From IMG/VR virus record IMGVR_UViG_3300005466_000051, positions 1 to 40,467 of that record: DNA of 40,467 bases; one strand, 5' to 3'. The first letter of the stretch is position 1, and each line of letters opens with the position of its first letter. Below, piece by piece: positions 6,167 to 37,709 of this stretch. Both the position numbers and the translations under genes were made by a program. This DNA comes from a virus. The notes under the pieces were generated by a model. It worked only from the letters and a program-made list of their open reading frames with translations. It ran no database searches and had not been told where the DNA came from.

Positions 6167-6317
6167 GCGTATTCCGTGGAAGTTGCTCGCAGTTATTTTA
6201 GTTATCTGGTTCGCCGGCCTTGTTCTTTCTGGTACTGCATGGTTTGTCGCCGGTCTTGGGGTAGGGTATCTGGCGTGTATAGCGTTGATAGCGTGGGATG
6301 ATCGGTATAATTCATGA
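6159..6317 (+). CDS. 52-residue membrane protein
   Basis: A GTG-started gene overlaps the previous one by eight bases. The product has two hydrophobic segments (about residues 8-24 and 26-46) and a short acidic tail. Its last codons contain the -10 box of the candidate promoter P4, and its stop overlaps the first base of the tRNA-like element at 6316, so coding and RNA signals are superimposed here. Function is unknown. Confidence 0.55.
   Translation: MSERIPWKLLAVILVIWFAGLVLSGTAWFVAGLGVGYLACIALIAWDDRYNS
6285..6311 (+). promoter_or_regulatory. Candidate promoter P4 for the tRNA-like RNA
   Basis: A perfect TATAAT (6306-6311) follows TTGATA (6285-6290) with a short 15-base spacer. Transcription would begin at about 6316-6318, the exact 5' end of the tRNA-like acceptor stem. 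The short spacer lowers confidence. Confidence 0.45.
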
Positions 6318-6382
6318 GGGAGAACCACTCAACAATGGCGGTGTCCCGGCCAGGACTGCAGGTTCGATTCCTGCCTCCCTCG
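6316..6382 (+). ncRNA. tRNA-like element TLS-1 (acceptor plus T-arm)
   Basis: A 7-bp acceptor GAGGGAG/CTCCCTC (6316-6322 with 6375-6381) and a 5-bp T-stem GCAGG/CCTGC with loop TTCGATT (6358-6374) are perfect, with discriminator G6382. The 35 bases between them are too short for normal D and anticodon arms. They offer only a 3-bp D-like hairpin (CCA/TGG) without the invariant GG and no convincing 7-base anticodon loop. No CCA is encoded. It reads as a tRNA mimic rather than a decoding tRNA. Confidence 0.55.
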
Positions 6383-6392
6383 ATCACAAACA

Positions 6393-6512
6393 TTGGGACG
6401 ACGGTAGAAGTCCGTTTAAAGGACGAGCCTCGGTAATGCAGAGGCGTGAGGGGAAGGGCCGAAGCCCATCAGTATCTCTGCTACTGACCCCAAGATTGAC
6501 GCTCCATCCCAA
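6393..6512 (+). ncRNA. Structured RNA or leader between TLS-1 and the GH16 gene
   Basis: A closing helix TTGGGA/TCCCAA (6393-6398 with 6507-6512) encloses several hairpins: ACGG/CCGT (6401-6415) or the alternative GTCC/GGAC (6410-6424), GCCTC/GAGGC (6427-6445), and a GGGG/CCCC helix (6450-6453 with 6488-6491) carrying GGGC-CGAA-GCCC and CAGTA/TACTG arms. The segment lacks a coding frame and a Shine-Dalgarno before the next ATG at 6522. It could be a stand-alone RNA or a control leader. I do not recognise the family. Confidence 0.5.
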
Positions 6513-6521
6513 CACAAAACT

Positions 6522-7175
6522 ATGAAAACACTACTCACATTCCTCGCGCTACTACTTTTCGTCGTGCCGGCGCAGGCCGCTACGAGCCCGTACACATTGA
6601 CGTGGCAGCGCACGAAGTGGAATGTATTTTACCGGACAGGAAACCTCTACCAGAATTGGAATCCCAACCGAGTAGAGATCGACGCAAGCACCGGCCGGCT
6701 GCTCGAGACCGCCATGTATTCGTCGGCCGGCGGGGTCGGAAATCCGGCACAGTATTTGTACGGACATTGGGTTTCACGTATCCGCATGTCGCCGGCTCTT
6801 GGTTCGAAGTATGTTATGCTCTTGATCAACAAGCCGGGCGGCGCAGAGATCGACTTTGCCGAAAACCGAGGAAAGGATCTTGACCCGAATCGCACCGAGC
6901 TGACTGCCACGATTCATTTCGCTGACGGAATCAAGCCAATTGCGCTACGAAACAGCGTTCGGGTAGACATGACGAAATTTCATCAGGTTGCTTTGTGGTG
7001 GTCACCCGGGCTGATTACGTTTCGGGTAGACGGGCGAACGTGGTGGGAGGTTGCAACAACTAGACTCGATGGAATCTCGATGCATCCGACGATCCAGACC
7101 AACAAGTACGGGCCCGGCCCGAAGTCGGTACTGGAAGTCTCTTACTTTCGATATACAGCTTTATCCAATCAATGA
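6522..7175 (+). CDS. Secreted GH16-type glycoside hydrolase
   Basis: The 217-residue protein starts with a Sec signal peptide (Lys3, a hydrophobic core, and a likely cut after AQA near residue 19) followed by a jelly-roll enzyme domain. The GH16 signature E-x-D-x-x-E is present as GAEIDFAEN, with Glu109 as nucleophile, Asp111 assisting and Glu114 as acid/base. Flanking strands such as YGHWVSRIRM and the Trp-rich VALWWSPG also fit the family, which cleaves beta-glucans or galactans. No Shine-Dalgarno precedes the ATG. The secreted nature suggests action outside the host cell rather than in the virion. The exact substrate cannot be predicted. Confidence 0.8.
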   Translation: MKTLLTFLALLLFVVPAQAATSPYTLTWQRTKWNVFYRTGNLYQNWNPNRVEIDASTGRLLETAMYSSAGGVGNPAQYLYGHWVSRIRMSPALGSKYVMLLINKPGGAEIDFAENRGKDLDPNRTELTATIHFADGIKPIALRNSVRVDMTKFHQVALWWSPGLITFRVDGRTWWEVATTRLDGISMHPTIQTNKYGPGPKSVLEVSYFRYTALSNQ

Positions 7176-7969
7176 ATGGAGTGCGATTGAAGCGTGTACT
7201 TACAGGACTGACGGCACTGTTTGCCGTCGCGCTACTGGCGGTGGTGACTGCCACGACGGCGTTTGCAACCAAGCCGCCTGAGCACAAGGTGACGATCTGC
7301 CATGCCACGCCGCCGGACACCGCGGCACAGGGTTGGCACAGCATCACCGTGGACGTTGCCTCTGTTGGCTACCAACACAGCGGTCACCAGGATCAGCATG
7401 ACGCCGACATCATTCCGGCGTGGTCTTACACGGATGCGGATGGCAACACTGTCTCGTATGCCGGCAAGAATCTCGGTGATCTGGGCGCCTTCGGGTTCCC
7501 GGGCGTGAACGGTGCGGACGTGCTCGAGGCCGGTTGTGTGGTTCCTGAGCAGCCGCCCGGAGGCCCGATTGTGGTGTCTCCGATTCCGCCAACGGTTACA
7601 ACCGCCAATTGCGATGATCCTCAGGTGGCCGTGGTTAAGTTCGATACGCCCGGCGTCAATGGACAGCCTACCGGCGTGCATGTCGATGTTCAAGGTGAAT
7701 TGACAGGCCCGAGTCATGTGGTCATTACGTTCAGTCCTGAGGAGGGCTATGCCTTCCCAGAGGGTACGCAGACAGTTTACACGTACGATCTCTCTGGGCC
7801 GCTTACGGGCGTACAGTGCAGGGGCGAGCCGCCGGGTGGTGGCGACAATCCCAAGCCGCCGAAGAAGTGCGCCAAGAACGATGCACAGTGTCAGGCCGCG
7901 AAGCTCCCCGATGGGGTTAGCGATCAGCAGTTGATCGAGGATTCCGGCTCGAGGGTGCAGGGCGGTTAA
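7172..7969 (+). CDS. Secreted protein with ICHAT-type domain
   Basis: The 265-residue protein has an N-terminal signal peptide (basic start, hydrophobic residues 8-30, Ala-rich cut region near residue 32). After it comes a KVTICHAT segment with several histidines and DIIPAWSY, a pattern I associate with extracellular domains of actinobacterial surface proteins. It continues with Pro/Gly-rich linkers, a beta-rich second domain and a Cys/Lys-rich tail. No LPXTG sorting signal is present. The ATG overlaps the stop of the GH16 gene (ATGA), so the two secreted proteins are probably made together. A surface-modifying or superinfection role is inference. Confidence 0.65.
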   Translation: MNGVRLKRVLTGLTALFAVALLAVVTATTAFATKPPEHKVTICHATPPDTAAQGWHSITVDVASVGYQHSGHQDQHDADIIPAWSYTDADGNTVSYAGKNLGDLGAFGFPGVNGADVLEAGCVVPEQPPGGPIVVSPIPPTVTTANCDDPQVAVVKFDTPGVNGQPTGVHVDVQGELTGPSHVVITFSPEEGYAFPEGTQTVYTYDLSGPLTGVQCRGEPPGGGDNPKPPKKCAKNDAQCQAAKLPDGVSDQQLIEDSGSRVQGG

Positions 7970-7973
7970 GTGT

Positions 7974-8081
7974 CTAGCGGTGCCGGATGGGAGATCACTT
8001 GTGAGTCTCTAGGTACCGGGTTAAATGGTTCCTGTCGGCCCTTCGAGGGTACAGCGAAAGCCGGGTGTGACCAGCCGCTAG
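7974..8081 (+). ncRNA. Structured RNA upstream of TLS-2
   Basis: A perfect 7-bp closing stem CTAGCGG/CCGCTAG (7974-7980 with 8075-8081) encloses a long hairpin GAGATCAC-TT-GTGA-(G)-TCTC (7991-8009), a helix GTACC/GGTAC (8013-8017 with 8048-8052) and a small CCC/GGG hairpin. There is no plausible coding frame. It lies between the secreted-protein gene and tRNA-like element TLS-2. No promoter is visible directly upstream, so it would be processed from the operon transcript. The RNA family is unknown to me. Confidence 0.5.
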
Positions 8082-8088
8082 CGTAGTC

Positions 8089-8130
8089 GGGGCGATGGTG
8101 TAGGGCGGGTTCGATTCCCGCCCCGCCCCT
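8089..8130 (+). ncRNA. tRNA-like minihelix TLS-2
   Basis: A 6-bp acceptor GGGGCG/CGCCCC (8089-8094 with 8124-8129) is followed by an 8-base connector and a 7-bp T-stem GGGCGGG/CCCGCCC with loop TTCGATT (8110-8116). The 13-bp continuous helix is close to the 12 bp of a tRNA acceptor/T-arm stack. D and anticodon arms are absent. The connector resembles the start of a tRNA D-arm (TGGTGTAG), so it may derive from a tRNA with an internal deletion. The start codon of the next gene is only two bases after its 3' end. Confidence 0.6.
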
Positions 8131-8131
8131 T

Positions 8132-8743
8132 ATGGAGTTTGTACTTTTAGTAGTTTTACTGTCTCTGGTTGTTTGGTTCGCCTTTGCCGCGGGTGGTTGG
8201 TGTGATGAGTTGATTGAGTGGAATTATCGACGACAATGCCCGCCGCTACCGCCGGCCAACAACGAGAAGGATCTCGAGCGTTGGCATGACGCCTACGATG
8301 CCGCGATCCTCGAGGGCAAGGATGAGGTTGAGGCTGTGCGGTGTGCTGACGTGGCCGTACGACCTGTACCGGATATAGCCGATCAAATGTGGAAGAGTAT
8401 GTATCCCGTGCGCAAATATATGCCGGCTGCAACTATGAATGAGATGCGAGACAAACTGTGGTATACCTCGCTACAGGCACAGTATCCCCGCTCAGAGCCC
8501 CTCCCGGGCGAGCCGGGCGGTATGGGCGCGATAGAGGCTGACGGTGACGGCACAATCAAACTGCGGTGGAATGGGCAAATGGTGCGTATGAGCACTGAGG
8601 AGTGGATCAGGCGGGGCCGGCCGGGGGCGCAGGAGGCCATTACCGGCCAGCGTAATCCACTCGCACCACCGATTCTAGGCAGTCCCCCGCCAGTGCCGGC
8701 GCCGTGGCAAGATCCAGTCTTTCGGAGTGTGGCTCGAGCATAA
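8132..8743 (+). CDS. Membrane-anchored hypothetical protein
   Basis: The 203-residue protein has an N-terminal transmembrane segment (residues 2-21) and then a hydrophilic region with charged helices and a Pro-rich C-terminal tail. No family is recognised. There is no Shine-Dalgarno, because the bases before the ATG form the 3' strand of TLS-2. If TLS-2 is cut at its 3' end, the mRNA would begin essentially at the ATG and be leaderless, which actinobacterial ribosomes translate well. That mechanism is a hypothesis. Confidence 0.65.
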   Translation: MEFVLLVVLLSLVVWFAFAAGGWCDELIEWNYRRQCPPLPPANNEKDLERWHDAYDAAILEGKDEVEAVRCADVAVRPVPDIADQMWKSMYPVRKYMPAATMNEMRDKLWYTSLQAQYPRSEPLPGEPGGMGAIEADGDGTIKLRWNGQMVRMSTEEWIRRGRPGAQEAITGQRNPLAPPILGSPPPVPAPWQDPVFRSVARA

Positions 8744-8744
8744 G

Positions 8745-8798
8745 ATGGTTGACCCCCTTGAGGTTGTCGTTCCTGATACACTGCCGGAAGGTTGGTAA
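8745..8798 (+). CDS. Possible 17-residue linker peptide
   Basis: A very short frame starts one base after the previous stop and ends in a TAATG overlap with the next gene. It may serve only to carry ribosomes across the gap. The acidic peptide (VDPLEVVVPDTLPEGW) has no recognised similarity, and translation is uncertain. Confidence 0.25.
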   Translation: MVDPLEVVVPDTLPEGW

Positions 8799-9040
8799 TG
8801 AACGCCAAACGAGTTGAAAATATTTTTCGTGAAATTGTTGGTAATCAAGGGCCCTATTCAATTGAGATTGAATCAGATGTGTTCGAACGTTTCACTATCA
8901 CTCTCTACTACCGACGGGCAGCCTTTGCTGAACGTGAGGAAATTCACCACTGCCATACTGACGATCTCATTGAAGGTATCAAATACGCACTTTTTTGGAA
9001 GAACGAAGATGTCGTACAAAGAATGAAGGTGAAGTCGTGA
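8798..9040 (+). CDS. Hypothetical protein
   Basis: The gene encodes 80 residues with mixed helix and strand content and no recognised family. The ATG at 8798 follows a GGAAGG site and shares a base with the preceding small frame's stop. Its stop overlaps the next GTG (GTGA). The local AT content is higher than in neighbouring genes. Confidence 0.6.
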   Translation: MNAKRVENIFREIVGNQGPYSIEIESDVFERFTITLYYRRAAFAEREEIHHCHTDDLIEGIKYALFWKNEDVVQRMKVKS

Positions 9041-9246
9041 TTCTCTCCTTGAAGCTCCCCGCCGGCCCGCACGAGCTGTTCTCGCACGATGCGGCCGACA
9101 ATATGGTGGGGCAGACATTTACGTCTGACGACAACGGTATTCTCGGTATCGGTAGTGTGGTTGCTGCTAGCGTTGTTGAGTACGGCCGAGCTATTCAGCT
9201 CACGGTTGAGTGGCCGAATCCTGTGGTTTGGGCACGTCGTGACTAA
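9037..9246 (+). CDS. Hypothetical beta-rich protein
   Basis: The 69-residue product starts at a GTG in a GTGA overlap. The sequence alternates short strands and turns (ILSLKLPAGPHELF, IQLTVEWPNPVVW), suggesting a small beta-barrel. No family is recognised. Confidence 0.55.
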   Translation: MILSLKLPAGPHELFSHDAADNMVGQTFTSDDNGILGIGSVVAASVVEYGRAIQLTVEWPNPVVWARRD

Positions 9247-9279
9247 GGAAGTCGCCAAATTCGAAGAGGGAGAGGGGCA

Positions 9280-9477
9280 ATGAGCACGGCACTAGAGATG
9301 GCGCAGCAGCAGATCACAGACTACGAGGAGTGGGCGAAGTCCGCCGCCTCGCCCACGCCGATGCCGGGCCGGATCCGAGAATGGTCACACGTCGAAAGCC
9401 GGTATGCCTACTACGCCGACCTGATGCTCGCCCGTTGGATCGTAGAGCAGTCAAAGGCCAATGATGAACGCGACTGA
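9280..9477 (+). CDS. Hypothetical helical protein
   Basis: Sixty-five residues, mainly helical, are preceded by a GAGAGGGG ribosome site. The gene overlaps the next by 14 bases. It has no recognised family. It directly precedes the second cluster of repeat-bearing small genes. Confidence 0.6.
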   Translation: MSTALEMAQQQITDYEEWAKSAASPTPMPGRIREWSHVESRYAYYADLMLARWIVEQSKANDERD

Positions 9478-9598
9478 ACATCGCGCGGCCTACTACGCAA
9501 CGGTGCGCTACCGCCTCCGGTACTGGCTGGCGATGAAGCTCCTTCCAGAAGACCACTGGATTCTGCGTCCGCTGCCCGAAGGGACGTTCGATGAGTGA
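9464..9598 (+). CDS. 44-residue protein with repeat-encoded N-terminus
   Basis: This small basic, Tyr/Trp/Leu-rich protein starts MNATEHRA, encoded by a palindromic repeat copy (9469-9485) whose centre is identical to the copy at the start of the gene at 4148. The rest of the protein is unrelated to that gene. It overlaps both neighbours (14 bases upstream, 8 bases downstream). Function is unknown. Confidence 0.5.
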   Translation: MNATEHRAAYYATVRYRLRYWLAMKLLPEDHWILRPLPEGTFDE

Positions 9599-9821
9599 CC
9601 GCAACGCGACTCAAGATCGCGCGACCAACGTGGGCGAGATCCGTGCCATCCGCAAGAGCGACGGCCGGCTGCTCTGGCAATGCTGGCTAGGGCACGGCCA
9701 CCAGCTTCCTATCGAAGATATGTTCCCGCCCGAGCTGGCGGGACTGGCCGTGCCGTGGGAACTGTGGGTTCGCCTACCGGGTGAGCTGGAATTCGCGGTC
9801 AAGGATATGCCCGATGAGTGA
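9591..9821 (+). CDS. Hypothetical protein with repeat-encoded N-terminus
   Basis: The 76-residue protein begins MSDRNATQDRA from a repeat copy (9605-9621) and continues with a strand-rich region containing several Trp residues (LLWQCWLGHGHQL, VPWELWVRLPG). It has no recognised family. It overlaps the previous gene by 8 bases and the next gene by 8 bases. Confidence 0.55.
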   Translation: MSDRNATQDRATNVGEIRAIRKSDGRLLWQCWLGHGHQLPIEDMFPPELAGLAVPWELWVRLPGELEFAVKDMPDE

Positions 9822-10008
9822 CGGCCGCGCGAGTGTGAATCGCGTGTGGGTCGAGCGCAGCCGAATCAAGGGGCCGCTCTCGACCGACTGGTTCCTCGGT
9901 CTGAGCTTTCGGCGCCGCCACCTGACGATCATGGTGATGACGGCGACCAAGCGCCAGGACGAGGAGCTGGGCCGCATCCTCCACGAAGGGCTGGTACGCG
10001 ATGACTGA
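9814..10008 (+). CDS. Hypothetical basic protein with repeat-encoded N-terminus
   Basis: Sixty-four residues begin MSDGRASVNRV (repeat copy 9828-9844), followed by a basic region and a C-terminal helix. The ATG at 9814 is chosen because it gives the shared N-terminal pattern and an 8-base overlap like its neighbours. Function is unknown. Confidence 0.55.
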   Translation: MSDGRASVNRVWVERSRIKGPLSTDWFLGLSFRRRHLTIMVMTATKRQDEELGRILHEGLVRDD

Positions 10009-10321
10009 TCGCGTAGCAGACGCTCCCGCCTGCCCGGCAATCGGCTCGAAGGGCGGACAGTGCGACCTCAAGCCAGGACATCGAGGCTCCCACGCAGCCC
10101 TCAGCACCCGCGAGTCGTGGCCGAACGACGCGGACGCGATCCCCAAAAGCGCGGCCTTCCAGGAAGGCATCACCAAGACGCCCGAGAGCTTTGAGATCAC
10201 GGGAGCAGAGAGCTTCGATGCGACTGGCCCCGCGACCCGTAATCGCGTTCGTATAACGGGCGAGAAGGGCGACATCGGCACATTCGACCCCGAGAGCGAT
10301 TGGGGAGGGCCGGGTACGTGA
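10001..10321 (+). CDS. Hypothetical protein with Cys/His-containing N-terminus
   Basis: The 106-residue product starts MTDRV from a repeat copy and has an N-terminal Cys/Gly/His region (CPAIGSKGGQCDLKPGHRG then SH) that could bind a metal. The rest is acidic and probably disordered. Two more repeat copies, one degenerate, lie in its second half. No family is recognised. It overlaps the previous gene by 8 bases. Confidence 0.55.
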   Translation: MTDRVADAPACPAIGSKGGQCDLKPGHRGSHAALSTRESWPNDADAIPKSAAFQEGITKTPESFEITGAESFDATGPATRNRVRITGEKGDIGTFDPESDWGGPGT

Positions 10322-10341
10322 CTCCGCATCGAATCTTCTGA
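10318..10341 (+). other. Vestigial 7-codon frame after the last early gene
   Basis: A GTG in a GTGA overlap opens a frame encoding only MTPHRIF. It matches the first codons of the gene at 4686 (SNVTPHRV) and then stops. It looks like the remnant of a deleted gene of the repeat-start family. Confidence 0.4.
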
Positions 10342-10347
10342 ACACAA

Positions 10348-10380
10348 AAACGCCCCCAGGCTTTTAACCCGGGGGCGTTT
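10348..10380. terminator. Convergent-junction hairpin terminator
   Basis: A perfect 10-bp stem AAACGCCCCC/GGGGGCGTTT encloses a 13-base loop. On the minus strand it is followed by TTTTTGTG, a good U-tract. On the plus strand the tract is weaker (TTTGTCT). It sits exactly between the ends of the convergent early and late transcripts. Confidence 0.85.
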
Positions 10381-10392
10381 GTCTATGGCGTC

Positions 10393-10557
10393 TTATACTT
10401 CTACGGCGATTCTGAGACACTTCTCACAGCCGGCGAGATAGCCGTCGAGCTGGCCCTCTCGAGCGGTAGGCAAAGTCTCTCGACTGATACCTTCAATCTC
10501 GGCGCGTTCGATCTCGGCAAGAATCCCGCGAATGATATCGTCCTTGTCGTCAACCAT
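10393..10557 (-). CDS. Small hypothetical protein, last gene of the late operon
   Basis: A 54-residue protein, mainly helical, has a CEKC motif near its C-terminus. It overlaps the preceding gene by eight bases and ends just before the terminator. No family is recognised. It is short but has the operon's usual spacing. Confidence 0.5.
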   Translation of the reverse strand: MVDDKDDIIRGILAEIERAEIEGISRETLPTAREGQLDGYLAGCEKCLRIAVEV

Positions 10558-10714
10558 CAATCTCCTCTTTCGGTTCGTGGTCTTCTAACCACTTATCGAA
10601 TCGTGCGTGCATGAGCAAAGATCGCTCAAATCCCTGGATGCCGTACTCTACCCACTCGTCCATCCATTTCTCGTCAATCTCGACTGGAATCCCGTTGTTT
10701 GCTAGCTCGCTCAT
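10550..10714 (-). CDS. Small acidic hypothetical protein
   Basis: The product is 54 residues, acidic and Trp-containing. The ATG at 10714 follows a GAGG site with good spacing, although it overlaps the upstream gene by 41 bases. An internal ATG at 10663 is an alternative. Function is unknown. Confidence 0.45.
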   Translation of the reverse strand: MSELANNGIPVEIDEKWMDEWVEYGIQGFERSLLMHARFDKWLEDHEPKEEIDG

Positions 10715-10844
10715 TTGCTACCTCAAGCAATTCTACGTGGAGGCGCCCCAAGCGGTGTCCCTTCTCAACACCGCCGCGCCGGAATAAATGATGAGACTCT
10801 TTCCTCGCCATCCGCGTGAGCCACTCATACCGGGCTCTATCCAT
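10674..10844 (-). CDS. Small basic hypothetical protein
   Basis: Fifty-six residues, Arg-rich and helical, start at an ATG one base after the RNR stop codon. The position suggests coupling to RNR translation. No thioredoxin-like CxxC motif is present, so it is not an obvious RNR reductant. Confidence 0.5.
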   Translation of the reverse strand: MDRARYEWLTRMARKESHHLFRRGGVEKGHRLGRLHVELLEVANERASKQRDSSRD

Positions 10845-10845
10845 C

Positions 10846-12447
10846 TTACACCCCGCACGAACCGCCGATACAGCGGTCCTCATTGTCTTTGACTACAGCG
10901 CCCCGCTCGAGCGCCTCTGTGTAGCTCAGACGCTTGATCGGCTGATGACCACGAGCGCCGTCAGGGTAGACTGTCACTCCTCGAAGTCCGGGCAGGAACT
11001 GCAGAAGAGTGTATCCAATTTCTGCAACCTCATCGCGATCCGTAACCGGAGCCGAGAGATTGATCGTGCTCGAGATCCCATGGTCTACGAACCGCTGCAA
11101 CCAATGCTGCATCTTGACGCGCGTGTAGAACGGGATCGTATAGGCGTCCTCGATGTCTTCGGGATTGTGCCCCTGATCTACCATACGCTGCGCTGTGGGG
11201 TCAATCACGATGTCGGTCTTCCACGACCCGTTAAGCCATCGCCGCTCGTAGGCCACAGCGAAGATCGGTTCCATGCCGGTCGTGGTCTCCGCGATAATAC
11301 CGATGGTGCCGGTCGGAGCGATTGCACGGGTCTTGACCGGCACCGACAGGCCGTGCTCCTGTGCTAGCTGACGAGCGATCTCAGTAGACGTGGCGTACTC
11401 GATCAACCATCCCTCGAGATCGTCGTCAGGCCCGTAGGGCTTGTCTCGCTGCAGGAGCCACTCGTGGACACCCATGAGACCTAGCCCAAGCCGTCGATTC
11501 TTCTCACGCACCGCTGCGACCTTCTTGTACGGTACGTCAGAATAGACTGTGCCAGCGAGCAGGAAGCGGACGGCCACGCGCAGCACACTCTTAAACTCCT
11601 CGAGCGACTTGATACGCGCAAGATTGAGCGAGCCGAGATTGCAGATGTCAGAGTCGTCGGCCGATGTGACTTCGGTGCAGGCGTTGCGCAGAGTCTCACC
11701 GGCATTGCGCCCCGCGTCAATACTGAATCCGGGCTCGGCGGTCTTGAGCATCCGCTCGAGGGTAGCCATGTAGACATCATGGGCCCACTCGTGACCTACG
11801 TGCGTATCGTCCGTGATCGCAGAGAAGAATTCATCGTCCAGGATCACGGATATATTCGTGCCCTCGAGCGGGAGCGGAAACTCAGGGTCTTTGTCCTTGA
11901 GCTTCCTCATTTCCGGCGACCAATCCTTCGCCTTGATGAAACTGAACACGTCCGGGTGCTTCCATGATAGGCCGGCCCAAATTGCGGCCCGTCGATGCCC
12001 GCCCTGGATAGAAGCCCGCCCAAGCTCATTGATCGCCTTCATCAAAGGCAGCGGGCCACTGGCAGTGCCTCCTGTGCGCTTAAGAGGCGCCCCGTCGGCC
12101 CTGAGATCGGAATAGTCAACCCCGATGCCGGCGCCCGTCGTCAGGGCCATCATGGCGTCCTGACAGAGCTGGGCCCAACCCTCGCGCGTGTCTACCGCCT
12201 TGAGGAGTAGACAATTCTGCGTCTGGTGGAGATCTCGACCAGAGGCGTACAGGTAGCGACCGCCCGGCATGAACTTACGCGTAGCGATTGCGTACTCTGT
12301 CTCCCGTGTTTCAGGTGAATCGGGGCTATACCCAAGAGCCCCCATCACATTCGTCGCAACCCGCTTGGCCGTATCCTCCCAATTTTCCTTACCGTCGAAA
12401 CTGTACTTTCCCTTGAATACGTCCTCAGCGAGCTGCGTCTCAAACAC
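10846..12447 (-). CDS. Class II (adenosylcobalamin-type) ribonucleotide reductase
   Basis: The 533-residue single-chain reductase would convert ribonucleotides to deoxyribonucleotides for phage DNA synthesis. The active-site signature N-x-C-x-E is seen as NACTE (Asn255, Cys257, Glu259). The redox-pair cysteines fit Cys79 (QTQNC) and Cys269 (DICNLGSLNL), and the C-terminal shuttle pair is CIGGSC (Cys526, Cys531). There is no ATP-cone and no partner beta subunit nearby, which fits the B12-dependent class II form typical of phages. It lies downstream of the lysis genes in the late operon, on the opposite strand from the polymerase. Confidence 0.92.
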   Translation of the reverse strand: MFETQLAEDVFKGKYSFDGKENWEDTAKRVATNVMGALGYSPDSPETRETEYAIATRKFMPGGRYLYASGRDLHQTQNCLLLKAVDTREGWAQLCQDAMMALTTGAGIGVDYSDLRADGAPLKRTGGTASGPLPLMKAINELGRASIQGGHRRAAIWAGLSWKHPDVFSFIKAKDWSPEMRKLKDKDPEFPLPLEGTNISVILDDEFFSAITDDTHVGHEWAHDVYMATLERMLKTAEPGFSIDAGRNAGETLRNACTEVTSADDSDICNLGSLNLARIKSLEEFKSVLRVAVRFLLAGTVYSDVPYKKVAAVREKNRRLGLGLMGVHEWLLQRDKPYGPDDDLEGWLIEYATSTEIARQLAQEHGLSVPVKTRAIAPTGTIGIIAETTTGMEPIFAVAYERRWLNGSWKTDIVIDPTAQRMVDQGHNPEDIEDAYTIPFYTRVKMQHWLQRFVDHGISSTINLSAPVTDRDEVAEIGYTLLQFLPGLRGVTVYPDGARGHQPIKRLSYTEALERGAVVKDNEDRCIGGSCGV

Positions 12448-12452
12448 GGGTA

Positions 12453-12635
12453 TTACTCCATTCTGCCCTCACATGAGAGCTTACGATGTATTAAATATGC
12501 TGTGATAGTGATGGTGTCAAGAACCGCTTGCTCGTCTATAGCCGCTACGACCGGGAGTGGAATTACACACCCGCAGTCGAGGTTCACCAGGGTCTTGATA
12601 TTGGCCCACGGCTTATAGTCGGTGAGAGGGTTCAC
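12453..12635 (-). CDS. Small hypothetical protein upstream of RNR
   Basis: A GTG-started 60-residue product overlaps the preceding gene as GTGA. It contains a CGC pair and a hydrophobic C-terminal half. It contains the candidate internal promoter for RNR within its coding sequence. Function is unknown. Confidence 0.5.
   Translation of the reverse strand: MNPLTDYKPWANIKTLVNLDCGCVIPLPVVAAIDEQAVLDTITITAYLIHRKLSCEGRME
12492..12520 (-). promoter_or_regulatory. Weak candidate promoter upstream of RNR
   Basis: On the minus strand a perfect TTGACA (12520-12515) is followed after 17 bases by TATTTA (12497-12492). The -10 box is poor, so this is only a possibility for separate, earlier expression of the reductase. 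Confidence 0.3.
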
Positions 12636-30551: not shown

Positions 30552-30552
30552 T

Positions 30553-30999: not shown

Positions 31000-31014
31000 T
31001 TTAGTTTATCCTCT

Positions 31015-31188: not shown

Positions 31189-31218
31189 TACTCTCCTTGG
31201 CCTTCTGTTGTTCAGGTT

Positions 31219-31333
31219 CGCCCTGAACAAGAGTGTTCACTGAACATCTCGAGCAAACGCACTTAGGCGAGTGCCCGCTCGTAAAGGGCGGACGTATGCC
31301 GGCGTTAGTCCCGCCCTGAACAAGAATGTTCAC
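31219..31333 (-). repeat. Pair of 22-bp direct repeats with nested hairpins
   Basis: Two direct copies (31219-31240 and 31312-31333) differ at one base. Each contains a TGAAC/GTTCA inverted repeat. A further stem GTTCAGG/CCTGAAC (31210-31228) overlaps the first copy, and GGGCGG/CCGCCC (31286-31316) fills the spacer. The second copy covers the epimerase stop codon. The pair may act as a terminator, an RNA structure, or the scar of an insertion. Confidence 0.65.
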
Positions 31334-32283
31334 GAGCGCCGGCCGAGATCTGCGTCAGGGTGAAACTCGGAAGCAAACTGTGGGGCCACCCGTCGGTCAA
31401 CCGCGGCGCCGTTAAGTGAGGGCTGGCCGGCGCGAAGCCACTCGAGCACACGACTCATGCCCTTTTCCAGCTCGATCTCTGGGCGCCATCCAAGGTTGCG
31501 CAACTTAACAGTCGTCAGACGCTTAACTACAGTCTGGCGGTCGGGCGGATCAGTCTCGTGAATTAGGTCGTGAGAAGCTCCAGTCAAGTCGCACGCAATC
31601 TCGGCAACACGCCTCATTGAGACTGCATTGTCGTCTCGACCAATGTTCCAATCGCCGGCCGCACGTCCTTCAAGCACGTAGCGCATACCCCGTACTGTGT
31701 CTCCGACCCAGCACCAAGCGCGCTCACTACCGCGATGAACATAAATCGGTTCTCCTCTGTCAGCTTGATCGAGGAAACAGACAATAGCCGCTCGGCCAAA
31801 GCCAGGAGGCAGGCCGGGTCCGTATGGCATGGACAGGCGGAAGTTGATGAGTCCGGCGGGGGCATAGAGCTGTAGAATCTCCTCGCCCCACCGTTTCGTG
31901 AGGCCGTAGGCATTATGTGGGAGCTTCATTCGACAGCCCTCCCACGCGGGCGACTGACCAAGATCACCGTATACCTCAGAAGTTGAGGCATAGGCAACCG
32001 GAACGCCCGCATCGCCACAAGCCTTCGCGACAAGCGCAGTGATGCCGGCGTTGTCCTGCACAGTAAACATCACATTATCTTCCCCGAACAGACGGCCCAC
32101 CTTTGCCGCCAGATGAACCACATAATCGGGATTGTACTTCTCGAGCGCGTGCTCGATAGTGCTCGGTGTTCGTAGATCCCCAAACTCGCGGTCGATACCG
32201 TTAACGTTATGGCCGTTCTGCCTAAGCTCGTTGCTCAGGTGTGTGCCGATGAAACCATCAGCCCCGGTTACGAGAAACTGCAC
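31330..32283 (-). CDS. NAD-dependent sugar epimerase/dehydratase (extended SDR)
   Basis: The 317-residue enzyme has the Rossmann motif TGADGFIG (residues 6-13), an HLAAKVG segment, and the catalytic YGLTK (Tyr126, Lys130) with an upstream STSEVYG. It would modify a nucleotide sugar for the adjacent glycosyltransferases. The HLAAKVG segment recalls GDP-fucose synthase-type enzymes, but the substrate is not certain. The GTG at 32283 is chosen because a GGAGG site lies just upstream and the Rossmann fold begins at once. A start at 32364 would add unrelated residues inside the previous gene. Confidence 0.85.
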   Translation of the reverse strand: MQFLVTGADGFIGTHLSNELRQNGHNVNGIDREFGDLRTPSTIEHALEKYNPDYVVHLAAKVGRLFGEDNVMFTVQDNAGITALVAKACGDAGVPVAYASTSEVYGDLGQSPAWEGCRMKLPHNAYGLTKRWGEEILQLYAPAGLINFRLSMPYGPGLPPGFGRAAIVCFLDQADRGEPIYVHRGSERAWCWVGDTVRGMRYVLEGRAAGDWNIGRDDNAVSMRRVAEIACDLTGASHDLIHETDPPDRQTVVKRLTTVKLRNLGWRPEIELEKGMSRVLEWLRAGQPSLNGAAVDRRVAPQFASEFHPDADLGRRS

Positions 32284-33247
32284 GTAATCCTCCGATGTCG
32301 TCTGCGTCCGGGTGGAGCAGAGTTTCAGGTAGAGCGGCCAGAGCGCACCGCGAGAAATGAGCAAGCATACCGTTCGGTTCGTAGATCCCCCCGCACGTAC
32401 AGCGAGGTTCGATAGGCTTGTGTAGCGGCTCGGGAACCATCATGTGTGAGAATTTTTCGGGGTGCTCGCGGACGTACATCGGCATATCCTCGAGCCCGAC
32501 CCACTCGGACGGGCGATACTCACGGGCGAAAACATCCCGGCCGGTCATGATAGATTCCATGATCCAGTCGTCCGTGAGAATGTCGGCAACCGTGAGCCCT
32601 CGAGCCAGGGCACCCTTGTCGATCAGGTCGATAGCTTTGTCCATCATGCCGGTAATCTTCGACCGAATCTTCTCGACGCCACCCTGGTAAGTCAGGTGAT
32701 GGCCGGAGAGAGCGCCCCGGGAGGGTACGGACGAATCCCACAAGATCGCCCCGCACACCCCTAGCTCAAGGATCTTCTGTCCGAGCACGACGCCGCCGAG
32801 CGTTCCCGCGCGGCACCCTCGATCCAGCCATCGCCAGTTTAGTGTGTAAACATGGAGATCCATCGGGAAGCGCATCGGCGGATTGTTGAGCGCATCCGAT
32901 AGAGCATACTGCGTCGGGATCTCGTCAAGGTCGGATACATATACGAGATCGAGAGGTTTGATGTCGTACATCCCGCGGATGAGAGCGTCGCGTTGCCAGC
33001 GTTCGCGAGCCACGTCATCTGCGTGCCGGGTACCGGCGGGCATGTCATCGACCACAACATATCTGATTTTGTCGGCCCACGGAGCAAATCGTTCCTGATG
33101 CTTTGGGAATTCCAGCTCTTTGGGCCGGCCGCGTTGATCGACTGTTGCTTCCGCCAGTACGACCACATCCACCATATCACCGATAGTGCCGAGACGAATC
33201 TCAAGGACATCAACCTCATTTTTAAATTGTGATGCGGTATAAATCAA
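32258..33247 (-). CDS. GT17-type glycosyltransferase
   Basis: The 329-residue protein matches the GT17 family (N-acetylglucosaminyltransferase-like). It has an opening strand with NEVDVLEIRL, then DMVDVVVLAEATVDQRGRP, a KIRYVVVDDMP segment, and a DXD-containing YVSDLDEIP. The TTG start at 33247 shares TTGA with the upstream small gene and begins exactly at the family's first strand. A C-terminal Cys pair (CTCGG) may bind metal. It probably transfers a sugar to a virion or host glycan. Confidence 0.8.
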   Translation of the reverse strand: MIYTASQFKNEVDVLEIRLGTIGDMVDVVVLAEATVDQRGRPKELEFPKHQERFAPWADKIRYVVVDDMPAGTRHADDVARERWQRDALIRGMYDIKPLDLVYVSDLDEIPTQYALSDALNNPPMRFPMDLHVYTLNWRWLDRGCRAGTLGGVVLGQKILELGVCGAILWDSSVPSRGALSGHHLTYQGGVEKIRSKITGMMDKAIDLIDKGALARGLTVADILTDDWIMESIMTGRDVFAREYRPSEWVGLEDMPMYVREHPEKFSHMMVPEPLHKPIEPRCTCGGIYEPNGMLAHFSRCALAALPETLLHPDADDIGGLRAVSRNRG

Positions 33248-33351
33248 CCGCGCCCCTGTCTCTGAATCCACCAGTAGAAGAACATTGCAGTAACACGATT
33301 GCGGCGGCGATATTCGACCTTTTCTTTGATCTCCGACCACGGCTTACTCAT
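33244..33351 (-). CDS. 35-residue basic/aromatic peptide
   Basis: A short frame lies exactly between an ATGA overlap with the upstream gene and a TTGA overlap with the GT17 start. The peptide has a basic helix and an aromatic membrane-like patch (MFFYWWIQ). Precise coupling at both ends supports translation. Function is unknown. Confidence 0.5.
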   Translation of the reverse strand: MSKPWSEIKEKVEYRRRNRVTAMFFYWWIQRQGRG

Positions 33352-33518
33352 GACCAACCTCTACATGCTTTACTAGTGTCTTCGTCATACTCAACGAGAC
33401 CCGATACCCATTCGAGCCCGATCTCAGACTCAATCCGTTTAAGTTCTCTCCAGGCATCTCCTAGTGAATCATACCGCTGCACGAGATTTGCGTTGTCAGA
33501 AAACAAAAGATATCTCAT
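33348..33518 (-). CDS. Small hypothetical protein in the glycosylation island
   Basis: Fifty-six residues start at an ATG in an ATGA overlap with the upstream glycosyltransferase and end in another ATGA overlap. The sequence is helical in the middle (DAWRELKRIESEIGLEW). No family is recognised. Confidence 0.55.
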   Translation of the reverse strand: MRYLLFSDNANLVQRYDSLGDAWRELKRIESEIGLEWVSGLVEYDEDTSKACRGWS

Positions 33519-34114
33519 GCTACGGGGCGCCTTCGGTTGCGATCTGCCAACCACCTATAGTAGTGAGGCACATAACCCTCCGCAGCCATTGCTTCCTCGA
33601 GAGCGGTCAAGTCCCGGGCCCGCCGTTCGGGGCGCCGGCCTTCGGGCGCGATGTAGTGATGGACAACATAGGTCGGACAGAATTGAATCGGGAGACCTAA
33701 CCGCCAGGCCCGATATGTAATCCAGTCGTCTGATCCGTCGTGGATCGGTAGGAACCACCCGCCGATCTTGAGCATTGCTCGAGTCAAAAATGGGATCATC
33801 ACTTTCAGGCCCATCGGAGTCTCACACACAAAACGCCGGCCATCCTCGTAAACGTTCGCTACAGGGACAATGCCCTTGTTGAGCATTTCAATCGGAGCCT
33901 GCCACCAGTCATACGCCGGAATGATATCGTCCGCGGTGAAGTGCAGATAGTCGCCAGTTGCCTGCTCTGCGCCTTGCTCCCACCCCTCAGCGCAAGACGG
34001 AGCATCTTTGACGACGATCACTTCGGCATCAGGGGCCGTTAACTTATACCCCTTGAGACACTTCGCTAGCCACTCCTCGCGACCAGTGATAGTAGGAACG
34101 ATAATCGAGATCAT
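33515..34114 (-). CDS. GT2-like glycosyltransferase, paralogue 2
   Basis: The 199-residue enzyme is GT-A fold: SIIVPTITGRE opening, AEVIVVKD, a DXD-type FTADD motif near residue 80, and an HDGSDDW motif. It is clearly related to the enzyme at 34213-34938, which shares PTITGRE, LHFTADDI and GSDDW. It lacks the other's longer C-terminal helix. Duplication followed by divergence would give two different acceptors or linkages. Confidence 0.8.
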   Translation of the reverse strand: MISIIVPTITGREEWLAKCLKGYKLTAPDAEVIVVKDAPSCAEGWEQGAEQATGDYLHFTADDIIPAYDWWQAPIEMLNKGIVPVANVYEDGRRFVCETPMGLKVMIPFLTRAMLKIGGWFLPIHDGSDDWITYRAWRLGLPIQFCPTYVVHHYIAPEGRRPERRARDLTALEEAMAAEGYVPHYYRWLADRNRRRPVA

Positions 34115-34209
34115 GTAATCTGACGCCTACGAATACGATCAGCCCACATATGCAAGAGAAGACCGACAGTATTTCCAATAACCCCAACAGAAAGTAAAAT
34201 AGTAATCAT
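34111..34209 (-). CDS. 32-residue membrane peptide between paralogous glycosyltransferases
   Basis: A hydrophobic helix (about residues 2-22) is followed by a basic tail (DRIRRRQIT). The stop overlaps the next start (ATGA). The position between two related glycosyltransferases suggests a membrane anchor or recruitment role, which is only inference. Confidence 0.5.
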   Translation of the reverse strand: MITILLSVGVIGNTVGLLLHMWADRIRRRQIT

Positions 34210-34212
34210 GTA

Positions 34213-34938
34213 CTATTGTAGGGCGTTCCAACCGGCGCCTTCTGCTTGCTGCCGCAACTGCTTTGCAACCATACGGTCTAGATCGCGAATCCGTACATTA
34301 TCAAGACCGGTAACACTCGTCCGCAGTCGCTCCTCGAGCGCACTGTAGACGGGTGGCACATAGCCGGCCTGCCCCATTGCCTCTACGAGCTTGAAGATGT
34401 CGCCGTGCCGGCGGGTATAGTCCCGGCCCTGATCGGCAACCCAATGTGTGAAGCTGTAGCTCGGTGCTGTGTGGAGAGGGATCTTGCGTTGTGTGGCAAC
34501 GTAGGAAACCCAATCGTCCGAGCCGTAGTGGATCGGTAGAAGCCATCCGCCCTGATCGAGCATCTTGCGGCTCAGGAACGGGACGAGTACATTCTTGACC
34601 AAGCCCATGTCTCCGAGCGGAGAGTCACACATCAGAGGCATGCCGTTAGAAGCGAACACGTTTGCAATCGGGACACCACCCATGTCCGCGGCCTTAACAG
34701 CGTCCGGCCACCAGTTTTGGTTGGGGGTAATGTCGTCGGCCGTGAAGTGGAGGTACAGACCGCGAGCCTGCTCGGCGCCCTTGATCCAGGCATGTCCGCA
34801 GCTCGGCTCGTTTTCGATGACAATAAGTTCTGCGCCCGGAGCAGTTGTTTCGTACCCCTCGACGCACATCTTGAGGTAATCCTCGCGACCCGTGATTGTG
34901 GGAATAATGACCGAAATCATCGGTCGGGCCTGCGCCAT
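34213..34938 (-). CDS. GT2-like glycosyltransferase, paralogue 1
   Basis: The 241-residue GT-A enzyme has SVIIPTITGRED, AELIVIENEP, a DXD-type FTADD, an HYGSDDW motif and a Tyr/Arg-rich C-terminal helix. The ATG at 34938 shares a base with the upstream stop (TGATG). A GTG three bases earlier and an internal ATG at 34920 are alternatives. It likely uses a UDP- or GDP-sugar to modify a phage or host target. Confidence 0.8.
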   Translation of the reverse strand: MAQARPMISVIIPTITGREDYLKMCVEGYETTAPGAELIVIENEPSCGHAWIKGAEQARGLYLHFTADDITPNQNWWPDAVKAADMGGVPIANVFASNGMPLMCDSPLGDMGLVKNVLVPFLSRKMLDQGGWLLPIHYGSDDWVSYVATQRKIPLHTAPSYSFTHWVADQGRDYTRRHGDIFKLVEAMGQAGYVPPVYSALEERLRTSVTGLDNVRIRDLDRMVAKQLRQQAEGAGWNALQ

Positions 34939-35657
34939 CACGGCCGGATACCGTAAAACGTCTTCATGCGAGCAGTAAACTTCTCGCCGTGTAGTTCTGC
35001 AATCTCATCCCACATGACCGGCACTTCTCCTCGCTTCTCGAGTCCTGCGACCCATAGGTGACGCTTCCACGGTGTGATCTGGAAGCCTGATTCAAATTGG
35101 ATAGTCTCAAGGGGGTCAACCTCGAGCCACAAAGTGCCGGCGTCTGGGTTGGCTTTGAGAACGCCCTCGTGCGTACTCGTGTCGCACATCTTCATAATAT
35201 TCTCTTCGCACGGTCGAGGATTACGTGCGAGTAGTTCTGTTGGGTAAGCCTTCATCGCCCAGATAGGATTCCGATACTGAATCGCTTTGATGCCCGTACC
35301 GTGTACGGCCGTCATCCAACGAGTTTGTATCAGTACATCCGTCGGACTCTGATCTATTGCTTGTAGGAGCCTAGGGTCAAAGGCCTGATCTGAATTAACG
35401 TGGAATGAGAAGTCGAATCCATGCTCAACTGCCCACTGATGCCCGTCGTTATATTTTGCGCCGAGAATGTTGGGGGATTCGATTCCCACGAATCCAAGCG
35501 TTCGGGCAAGCTCAACATTTTCGAAGTCACCGACGCATACACATTGTGCTTCCACTCCAAGACTAGCCGCCTCCTCGAACGTCTGAGCGCGATGCTCGAG
35601 CATGATTCGTGTCAGCTCGAACCGCCTGAATACCGGCGTGACTAAAAGTACGGACAC
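34938..35657 (-). CDS. GT-A-type glycosyltransferase
   Basis: The 239-residue protein has a GT-A-like start (SVLLVTPVFRR), a QCVCVGDFEN strand, and an FHVNSDQAF segment where Asn-Ser-Asp sits at the DXD position. It is more divergent than the two downstream paralogues. The GTG start follows the small membrane gene after three bases. It belongs to the same operon and probably the same glycan pathway. Confidence 0.68.
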   Translation of the reverse strand: MSVLLVTPVFRRFELTRIMLEHRAQTFEEAASLGVEAQCVCVGDFENVELARTLGFVGIESPNILGAKYNDGHQWAVEHGFDFSFHVNSDQAFDPRLLQAIDQSPTDVLIQTRWMTAVHGTGIKAIQYRNPIWAMKAYPTELLARNPRPCEENIMKMCDTSTHEGVLKANPDAGTLWLEVDPLETIQFESGFQITPWKRHLWVAGLEKRGEVPVMWDEIAELHGEKFTARMKTFYGIRP

Positions 35658-35660
35658 AGG

Positions 35661-35774
35661 CTAGAAGTATTTTCGTAGTTCCCTGCGGAGCTTGTAGTAC
35701 GCGACTACCTCGCGGCCGACGGACACAAAGTACCGCGGGGGCAGGAGCAACAGAAATCCAATGAGCCTAAGCAC
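35661..35774 (-). CDS. 37-residue membrane peptide
   Basis: A GTG-started frame overlaps the HNH stop by eight bases. It encodes a hydrophobic helix (LIGFLLLLPP) and a basic helical tail (KLRRELRKYF). The adjacent glycosyltransferase begins three bases after its stop. It may anchor the enzyme at the membrane. Function is unproven. Confidence 0.4.
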   Translation of the reverse strand: MLRLIGFLLLLPPRYFVSVGREVVAYYKLRRELRKYF

Positions 35775-36210
35775 TGGCAAGTTTATGCTCCTCGTGTAGT
35801 TCTGCGTGACAATTAGCGCACAGAAGATCGCATTTTTCTGCTTCAATACGTGCCCGCTCCAGACTAGTGCGAGCAACTAATGTTCCAACATCAAACTCTT
35901 TTTCACTTGAATCTCGATGATGGAAATGTAGTGCCGCTAGACATCGATCATACCCACACCGAACACACGCCCCGCCGTGCTCGAGTTTCAGTGTCTTACG
36001 ATTTTGCGCTATACGAGCAGACTGACGACCAAGAATAGTAGTTTGGTTTCGAAGATAATAGGCTCTATCTTCATCAGCATTTTTAACCTTGCATGTCCAA
36101 GTACCGAGACCGGCACACTGGAGATTCTTTTTCCAGTACATCAATTCACCGTGACACTCACACCTAGGACGAGAATCACCAACTTCTGCATATTTTTCTG
36201 CGGCTGTCAT
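35767..36210 (-). CDS. HNH endonuclease inserted after the capsid gene
   Basis: The 147-residue protein has an N-terminal CxC/Cys zinc region (residues 17-39), a DNA-contacting helix (NRKTLKLEHGG), a CVRCG knuckle, and the HNH core HFHHRDSS followed by LLCANCHAELHEE. The order matches group I homing-type HNH proteins. It sits alone between the capsid gene and the glycosylation island, uses an AGGAG site, and is more AT-rich than its neighbours, all suggesting mobility. No intron boundary is apparent in the adjacent capsid gene. Confidence 0.88.
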   Translation of the reverse strand: MTAAEKYAEVGDSRPRCECHGELMYWKKNLQCAGLGTWTCKVKNADEDRAYYLRNQTTILGRQSARIAQNRKTLKLEHGGACVRCGYDRCLAALHFHHRDSSEKEFDVGTLVARTSLERARIEAEKCDLLCANCHAELHEEHKLASA

Positions 36211-36235
36211 TTATCTCCTCTAGATAACGGTCGGA

Positions 36236-36269
36236 GTTGGGGAGCTGGCCGTTATTCCAGCTCCCCAAC
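36236..36269 (-). terminator. Strong hairpin after the major capsid gene
   Basis: A perfect 13-bp stem with arms GTTGGGGAGCTGG and CCAGCTCCCCAAC encloses an 8-base loop. No U-tract follows, so it may stabilise capsid mRNA or act as a processing stop rather than a classic terminator. Confidence 0.6.
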
Positions 36270-36323
36270 ACCCTAGCTAGTTGAGCTTATCAAAACGCTG
36301 CAACTAAACGTGAACCAGTAGGA

Positions 36324-37577
36324 TCACGTAGCCGCGCCGACACCACCAAGGTCTGCGACAGCAAAGGCCGCAGGCCGGTAGACAGCAAGCGCAAGACGCT
36401 CCTCCGCGCGGATGGCCACTTTATTTTCCTGGAAGAAAGTGGAATGCGAATTCGACGCCTCCACGCGCAGACCGCCCTTACGATAGACCTGCGAAGCGGT
36501 GCTGAACGCACCGACAATCGGCTTGGCCTCGGCAACAGCCGTGGTGACCACGACGCGCATACCCCACAGGTTCGGGCCGGCCTCAGAAGAGAACGGACCA
36601 GTACCCATGTAGTTAGCAGTCGTGTTCTTGAGGGTAACAATACCCTCCCAATCGTTCGGGTGGATGATGATACCGTCCGGCTCGAGGAATGCCTCACGCA
36701 CCCTCGAAATAGCCCGGAAGATATGATCTGCGTCAGTGGCGCTAGCAGCGTTCGAACGAAGGCCCTTATTGTTGGCCGGAATACGGCTAACAAGACCAAC
36801 GAGATCGTTCGTGCCGGCACCGTTCAGGAGCGAGTTCTCTTCCTGAATCTTGACGAACAGAGTCAGACGCGCATTGATGTACGACTGGATACCAGCGACA
36901 TCCTCGAGCATCTCCTCAGTGACCGGCAGGAAGGTAGCGATCTTCTTGACCGGCTCACTCGTCATATCGAAGACCAGAGTAGACTCCGGCTTGCTCACAC
37001 CTTCCGCGACGGCCGCAGCAGCGTTCGTCACCGAAGACTCGATCATGTAGTTGATCGTGTTAGTGTCAGTGGTACCCGACGCCATAAGATCGGCTACAGT
37101 GAGCCTCTGAAAGAGCACCGGGAGAATACCCGGCTCGTACTGCGGGACAACGAGCTTACCGCCCGAACCAGTAGCCTCAGACAGAAGGGTCTTAACCTCC
37201 ATGTCAATGGCACCGGTCGTCCAGTTACCGTCGAAGCCGCGATCACGCAGCGCCTTGTAGCCGTCCGACTTAACGAACGCCTCACCCGGCGAAGAAGCGC
37301 GCGGCGGCGCATCAGGGGCACGGCGAGCATCTTCGTCAATCTCGATGGTCTCACCGATGTTCTTCACGCGGTTGCGAGTCTCGATAGAAGCCTGAACCTC
37401 GCGCCGCGTCTCCTTGAGGACTTCAACCTGATCGAGAAGGCCCTTGACCTTCTTATCCTCGTCCTCAGTCATACCACGAGCCTCAGCGTGCGCCGCCTCT
37501 GTAACAGCCTTGGCGTTGCCGAGAATCTCGCGCATCTCGCGGTCAACCGCCGCGAGCTGTCGTTCGTACTTATCCAT
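36324..37577 (-). CDS. HK97-fold major capsid protein
   Basis: The 417-residue protein has an N-terminal coiled-coil delta domain (residues 1-70), an acidic linker that the prohead protease would remove, and the HK97 core. Core elements include LVVPQYEPGILPVLFQRL, a VSKPES E-loop region, KIATFLPVTEEMLEDV and a C-terminal HSTFFQENKVAIRAEERLALAVYRP P-domain strand. It directly follows the protease and would assemble the icosahedral shell. Flanking hairpins and a tRNA-like element suggest special mRNA handling. Confidence 0.95.
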   Translation of the reverse strand: MDKYERQLAAVDREMREILGNAKAVTEAAHAEARGMTEDEDKKVKGLLDQVEVLKETRREVQASIETRNRVKNIGETIEIDEDARRAPDAPPRASSPGEAFVKSDGYKALRDRGFDGNWTTGAIDMEVKTLLSEATGSGGKLVVPQYEPGILPVLFQRLTVADLMASGTTDTNTINYMIESSVTNAAAAVAEGVSKPESTLVFDMTSEPVKKIATFLPVTEEMLEDVAGIQSYINARLTLFVKIQEENSLLNGAGTNDLVGLVSRIPANNKGLRSNAASATDADHIFRAISRVREAFLEPDGIIIHPNDWEGIVTLKNTTANYMGTGPFSSEAGPNLWGMRVVVTTAVAEAKPIVGAFSTASQVYRKGGLRVEASNSHSTFFQENKVAIRAEERLALAVYRPAAFAVADLGGVGAAT

Positions 37578-37595
37578 TAGGTTAAGTACCTCTCT

Positions 37596-37660
37596 GCCCC
37601 GAAGGGCTAACGCGCAGCGCCGGCCGCGGACCCACTACCTTAGTGGTCTGCGCAGCGTTA
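37596..37660 (-). promoter_or_regulatory. Structured capsid leader
   Basis: The capsid 5' leader can form GCCC/GGGC with a 4-base loop (37596-37607) just before the GAGAGG site. It also forms a TAACGC/GCGTTA stem (37608-37613 with 37655-37660) that holds a CACTA/TAGTG hairpin (near 37633-37645). It follows TLS-3 directly. It may stabilise or regulate the capsid message. Confidence 0.45.
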
Positions 37661-37668
37661 ACTGCGAT

Positions 37669-37709
37669 TGCGGGGCGTGGGAATCGAACCCACACTAACC
37701 GTTCCCCGC
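37669..37709 (-). ncRNA. tRNA-like minihelix TLS-3 between protease and capsid genes
   Basis: On the minus strand GCGGGG/CCCCGC pairs as an acceptor (a seventh position is an A-G mismatch). A 9-base connector and a 5-bp T-stem GTGGG/CCCAC with loop TTCGATT follow, and the discriminator is A. D and anticodon arms are absent. It lies seven bases after the protease stop and ahead of the capsid leader. Its geometry matches TLS-2 while its stem sequence differs. Confidence 0.6.

Follow-up and report, generated by a model that had tools for sequence, protein, structure and literature searches.

Punctuation of transcripts by transfer RNAs (tRNAs), carried out by RNase P and RNase Z, is established in animal mitochondria (PMC4394434), and RNase P also cleaves hairpins made of an acceptor stem, a T stem and a T loop only (PMC11143913). 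Here we analysed the 40,467 bp of the IMG/VR virus record IMGVR_UViG_3300005466_000051 over its full length (hereafter the window), in which an original prediction had pointed out three tRNA-like minihelices with one common T-loop, here called E1, E2 and E3, and had read them as part of an RNA processing system based on host tRNA maturation enzymes. Judged from sequence and base pairing, E2 and E3 belong to a widespread family of phage RNAs unmatched in Rfam 15. The minihelix lies in the gene gaps of many phages, in some of them in almost every gap, which suggests that host tRNA-processing enzymes have been borrowed.

Like the mitochondrial tRNAs, the phage elements are tRNA-shaped, lie between genes on the coding strand and would delimit messages, and a cut at both borders is expected. 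They differ in being mostly not tRNAs but minihelices of 39–46 nt without an anticodon arm, in belonging to DNA phages, and in that their cleavage is here predicted. The RNase P model substrates of McClain, Guerrier-Takada and Altman are nearly the same minimal RNA, an acceptor stacked on a T-arm with a natural T-loop, but those were synthetic, whereas the phage minihelices are natural and carry a D-loop-like linker and C-N-A in place of CCA. Phage-encoded RNase P substrates other than tRNAs include phi80 M3 RNA, the C4 antisense RNA of P1/P7 and T4 gene 32 messenger RNA (mRNA) (PMC11143913); unlike the minihelices, they are single RNAs with other folds and not a repeated intergenic family. 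Mimicry of tRNA within a longer RNA is seen also in plant-virus tRNA-like structures and in MALAT1 mascRNA, the latter released by RNase P and RNase Z, but these have other architectures and are single 3′-terminal elements of RNA viruses or part of one host long non-coding RNA. In T7-like phages, intergenic RNase III sites cut the early transcripts into single messages; these sites are, in contrast, long hairpins that another host enzyme recognises. The original prediction knew of no description of this arrangement, and no published one was found in the literature searched, where subscription papers and preprints lay mostly outside the search and a prior description is possible.

Three elements in the window

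The three elements are present at the predicted positions and on the predicted strands. Bit scores of E2 and E3 below come from a covariance model built on a mixed alignment with no window sequence inside (the leave-out model), and z-scores from fold energies.

6316..6382, plus strand: E1, three-arm tRNA-like element; Rfam tRNA model 25.2 bits, T-arm match in the leave-out model, fold z −2.4
8089..8130, plus strand: E2, minihelix; 36.1 bits with the model excluding E2, fold z −3.05, found by the fixed-rule scan
37669..37709, minus strand: E3, minihelix; 37.9 bits with the model excluding E3, fold z −2.5, identical in three near-identical IMG/VR contigs (L004–L006)

The T-loops are identical; the record contains exactly three copies of GGTTCGATTCC, all of them within the elements, and none of the backwards control. 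E2 reads GGGGCG-ATGGTGTA-GGGCGGG-TTCGATT-CCCGCCC-CGCCCC and forms a stack of 13 bp. Its acceptor strands (8089–8094/8124–8129) are followed on the 5′ side by the linker (8095–8102), the T stem is 8103–8109/8117–8123 with the loop TTCGATT at 8110–8116, and position 73 is T8130. E3, with a stack of 12 bp, reads GCGGGG-AACGGTTAG-TGTGGG-TTCGATT-CCCACG-CCCCGC; here the acceptor is 37709–37704/37675–37670, the linker 37703–37695, the T stem 37694–37689/37681–37676, the loop TTCGATT 37688–37682 and position 73 A37669. Both minihelices retain in their linkers the D-loop-like GG, which proved to be a signature of the family. In E1 a 7-bp acceptor, GAGGGAG (6316–6322) with CTCCCTC (6375–6381), encloses two small extra arms (about 6324–6356) and the T-arm (6358–6374) with the loop TTCGATT, and position 73 is G6382. 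The predicted lack of normal D and anticodon arms therefore holds for E2 and E3 but not for E1, which fits the Rfam tRNA model from end to end, under the curated cut-off of 29 bits.

When a fixed acceptor/T-arm rule was applied to the window, E2 and E3 were its only matches, and 60 Markov-resampled windows gave none; a looser rule for E1 gave one match in the window versus 0.03 per resample. The leave-out model recovered E3 with an E-value of 8.5e-8 and E2 with 2.7e-7. Both have the stack, the TTCRANY loop and the GG linker that define the family, and both are located on the coding strand between a stop and a start. E1 was matched by its T-arm alone (18.9 bits, E 0.012) and for this reason we did not file it as a member; it may be a member or a tRNA-derived cousin, and three-arm versions in gaps of phage Cuke and in Klebsiella phage records make its membership plausible but do not prove it.

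The elements touch gene boundaries, as had been claimed: E1 overlaps the TGA of a 52-aa open reading frame (ORF), E2 stands 2 nt before the ATG at 8132, and E3 6 nt after the stop at 37716. The claim that each adjoins another structured RNA was not supported, as the fold energies there were not significant against shuffles (z −1.3, −0.7 and −0.6). The leaders beside E1, E2 and E3 (6393–6510, 7973–8081 and 37590–37668) can be drawn as multi-branched folds and have no Rfam match; that at 6393–6510 has a possible pseudoknot, GCAGAG/CTCTGC.

ARAGORN called no tRNA gene in the window, and no Rfam 15 family matched there at gathering score; six multi-copy loci yielded one ordinary tRNA only. Relaxed Rfam thresholds brought nothing beyond similarity to the T-arm of tRNA and transfer-messenger RNA. 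The transfer-messenger RNA family RF00023 was rejected, as it was matched only by the 17-nt T-arm with 12.8–17 bits versus a cut-off of 47. The end-to-end fit of E1 and the tRNA-like T-arm and acceptor would suit tRNA genes, whether ordinary or in decay, or attachment sites derived from the 3′ ends of tRNAs. However, besides the negative ARAGORN result, covarying stems, a conserved linker and the avoidance of C75 (see below) are not products of tRNA decay, and attachment sites lack a paired 5′ strand of the acceptor and would not be multi-copy. Covariation and copy number led us to reject the attachment-site and decayed-tRNA readings, and we regard this explanation as the least probable of those considered here.

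A minihelix family in phage genomes

A search of IMG/VR with a gapped pattern derived from E2 and E3, in which the linker sequence was unspecified, returned 77 stretches. After removal of tRNAs there were many unrelated contigs with well-paired minihelices, mostly with a GG-containing and often ATGGT-like linker. The second pattern, built on that linker, gave at least 86 elements on at least 51 IMG/VR loci, often 2–6 per contig, and the IMG/VR total is at least 115 distinct minihelices on at least 74 contigs (tRNAs called by ARAGORN removed). Permuted T-loops had 1–9 matches versus 106 for the real loop, on loci that had been chosen for the real loop. The anatomy of the family is an acceptor stem, a D-loop-like AAYGGTT linker and a T-arm with the loop TTCGATT, in a coaxial stack of 11–13 bp. 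The original prediction had proposed a covariance search in other phages, and covarying homologues were found in far greater number than it had asked for.

Across 84,980 genomes of bacteria and archaea, a related pattern matched only 4 stretches, two of which look like minihelices, versus 16 in IMG/VR, about ten of which appear genuine. The family is mainly viral. The two bacterial cases are in Brachyspira genome contigs (L093 3016–3046 and L096 2949–2989). At two loci (L020 and L052) an ordinary-looking tRNA gene stands directly downstream of a family minihelix. Several leads from BLAST with a short consensus were dropped, namely Gordonia phage Fosterous (no model matches), Caulobacter phage CcrPW and Halorubrum phage HF2 (both weak) and Ruegeria phage V13 (ordinary tRNAs).

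Conservation of pairing was strong in the alignments. In that of Indlulamithi and Cuke elements 98.8 % of cells were paired versus 61.9 % in shuffles and 41–56 % in slid controls, both sides had changed in 9 of the 10 pairs, and the covariation score was 0.85 versus 0.17 (0/500 shuffles); the mixed alignment scored 0.88 versus 0.20. A MAFFT alignment (A1) had its acceptors out of register and was excluded from the pair counts. As the alignments hold elements from a scan that demanded pairing, a fairer test is that on 64 hits picked by linker and T-loop sequence alone. There the T stem was extended in 94 % and an acceptor of at least 5 bp formed in 50/64, and the controls gave a mean of 1.4 (maximum 5) with shuffled 3′ flanks and 4.6 (maximum 12) with swapped 5′ flanks among T-paired hits. 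This test confirms the pairing.

Cultured mycobacteriophages also have the family. In Wildcat/MaryV/Cosmo, Indlulamithi, Cuke, Predator, Send513 and Fowlmouth, most of the gaps within the early operons of small genes hold a minihelix, and one element was matched by sequence in Papyrus, Zenon, Nilo, Riparian, Candle, MrMiyagi and others. Pooled counts refer to six annotated phages (Indlulamithi, Cuke, Send513, Fowlmouth, Predator and MaryV). In these, 59 elements are sense and 0 antisense, 43 of the 58 early-operon gaps of 70–130 nt hold a minihelix, the distance from stop to element has its mode at 9 nt, and that from element to start has a median of 44 nt. The layout is fixed: the stop codon is followed after about 9 nt by the minihelix, then by A-C-(G/T/A)-A, in many cases a hairpin, the Shine-Dalgarno sequence and, about 40–45 nt past the element, the start. 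The phage records have no feature annotation for the copies examined. In the Wildcat group, the mixed-alignment model found two minihelices only and no tRNA at E < 0.01 in MaryV, and Cosmo has over 20 ordinary tRNAs. For MaryV gene 130 (also Cosmo 144) the annotated start falls within a minihelix (L092 2129–2167); it is probably misannotated, as a Shine-Dalgarno-supported ATG lies about 35 nt downstream.

Regarding the 3′ end, the stack is followed by a discriminator base, C, a base that is almost never C, and usually A, which is the place of CCA in tRNA with C75 avoided. In the cultured set, position 73 is A in 52/59, position 74 C in 57/59, position 75 C in 2/59 and position 76 A in 41/59. 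The triplets among the 115 IMG/VR elements include CTA (26), CGA (18), CAA (12) and CCA (3). We do not treat C-N-A as a defining feature, as only about half of the IMG/VR members have it. A short downstream hairpin is a real and frequent companion in the wider family: one starts within 8 nt in 50 % of the IMG/VR elements versus 6 % of shuffles. In E2 and on the unrelated contigs L057 and L072, an ATG follows 1–2 nt past the acceptor with no Shine-Dalgarno sequence.

Predicted cleavage and competing explanations

The anatomy of the minihelix comprises the features by which RNase P and RNase Z recognise their substrates: a 12-bp stack, a T-loop with the D-loop GG, a discriminator, a near-CCA triplet and a fixed place between stop and start. 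From this anatomy and place we infer cleavage, and we consider it rather likely that E2 and E3, and more loosely E1, are phage minihelices that punctuate polycistronic transcripts and are cut out of the RNA. For the wider claim we see about even chances: phages of different hosts would use a dedicated miniature tRNA, its CCA spoiled at C75, as a cut mark between genes, at which the tRNA maturation enzymes of the host would divide long early transcripts into single-gene messages. The defined 5′ ends of these messages would be leaderless or protected by a hairpin, and the system would be the viral equivalent of punctuation in mitochondria. The original proposal of a processing system is in this way partly supported, with the processing role itself predicted from the sequences.

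RNase P contacts leader positions −8 to −3 by its protein, and it pairs with RCCA through the GGU in its P15 loop (PMC11143913). The AAYGGTT linker supplies the two Gs that dock onto the T-loop in tRNA. In the proposed mechanism host RNase P would cut where the acceptor begins, and the cut after the discriminator base would be made by RNase Z or a different nuclease of 3′ processing. Removal of the minihelix would release monocistronic messages. In several bacteria RNase Z is blocked by CCA. Replacement of C75, while C74 and A76 are kept, may preserve part of the RNase P contact, lift this block and prevent use as a real tRNA. Hairpins at the 5′ terminus shield mRNA from decay that depends on the 5′ end, and many phages would have one 2–5 nt from the new 5′ end, with such protection as the expected result. 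A cut after position 73 of E2 would leave a leaderless U-AUG message with a one-base leader.

Several observations weigh against this mechanism. The loss of C75 should weaken, not help, the RCCA contact of RNase P, and a 5′ cut would leave the upstream message ending in about 9 unstructured nt. In the window itself there are just two strict elements and E1, not one per gap, and the folds adjoining them are not significant by energy. The triplets after position 73 (ATC in E1, TAT or TTA by register in E2, ATC in E3) depart from C-N-A, and this is the main departure of the three elements from the family. Moreover, a capsid relative 47 % identical (L007) is without E3, and the position of E3 is therefore not conserved.

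The minihelix could also remain uncut and act on mRNA stability or translation; folded up where one message ends or within the leader of the following one, it would halt exonucleases or adjust how well ribosomes gain access. The stop-start position, the downstream hairpin and a strong Shine-Dalgarno sequence would fit this, and a plain hairpin would suffice too; the T-loop, the AAYGGTT linker, the 12-bp register and C-N-A at the place of CCA are nevertheless all conserved and needless for a simple stabiliser, and we take this explanation to be unlikely. A role at the DNA level, as sites of recombination or mosaic exchange or as a small mobile repeat spreading between phages, appears very unlikely. 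It would account for the many copies per genome and for a 76-bp island with 91 % identity common to Cuke (31.1 kb) and Indlulamithi (35.7 kb), which holds a minihelix and its hairpin as if gaps had been exchanged and was the sole matching stretch reported in the 10 kb searched. However, the stems of paralogues differ and yet pair, and 0/59 elements are antisense, which argues that selection acts on the strand of the RNA, and exchange could be a side effect. Even less credence is given by us to decoys or mimics acting in trans, which would bind RNase P, T-loop modification enzymes, the CCA enzyme or tRNA-cutting defence nucleases. The tRNA-like elbow, the near-CCA end and the many copies per phage would serve a decoy, but the minihelix has no anticodon to offer to anticodon nucleases, and a decoy needs no fixed, sense-only place 9 nt past the stop in nearly every gap.

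Predicted cleavage by RNase P and RNase Z, if true, would mean that phages punctuate their mRNA by these two enzymes and would extend tRNA punctuation to DNA viruses. It would also add to the natural mRNAs that RNase P cleaves, account for one way in which leaderless phage mRNAs arise and offer a genetic tool of 40 nt with which the genes of bacterial operons could be separated. The results add an RNA family unmatched in Rfam in cultured, tractable mycobacteriophages, whose early gene gaps otherwise look like unexplained spacers of 80–100 nt.

Genomic surroundings and three-arm forms

The window contains genes of a tailed phage, among them DNA polymerase A, class II ribonucleotide reductase, an HK97-type capsid protein, tape measure and lysis genes. 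No named phage was close by DNA to its first 20 kb. The genes next to the elements are the following.

6159..6317, plus strand: small ORF of 52 aa, whose TGA (6315–6317) overlaps the first two bases of E1
6522..7175, plus strand: glycosyl hydrolase family 16 gene, downstream of E1
8132..8743, plus strand: ORF of 203 aa with no family match; its ATG starts 2 nt past the E2 acceptor, with no Shine-Dalgarno sequence
37716..39077, minus strand: head maturation protease gene, upstream of E3, with the stop codon 6 nt before E3
36324..37577, minus strand: major capsid protein gene, downstream of E3, with its start 92 nt after E3

The homologue search found no relatives of the window polymerase or of the ORF downstream of E2. 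Beyond the three near-identical contigs, E3 was absent in the relatives of the capsid gene, L007 included, and in those of the upstream protease.

Forms with additional arms occur in several phages. Of two Cuke gaps (L220 8527–8725 and 11974–12096), one contains a longer element, which encodes its ACCA end and has a large hairpin inserted, and the other an element with three arms; both are possible intermediates between tRNA and minihelix. In T7-like Klebsiella phages we noticed an unannotated three-arm tRNA-like element with the acceptor GGTCAG/CTGACC and a TTCGATT T-arm, which is placed between a phage promoter and the Shine-Dalgarno sequence of the next gene in Klebsiella phage 5OI88 (L243, about 960–1035), in K11 and KP32 and in about 140 other records. 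Such an element upstream of a gene start was present in 145 records, nearly all of them Klebsiella phages (Przondovirus: K11, KP32 and others). Microbacterium phage GardenB (L244 1040–1240) has a three-arm tRNA-like element, GGATGA/TCATCC followed by ACG, in a gap beside DNA polymerase I.

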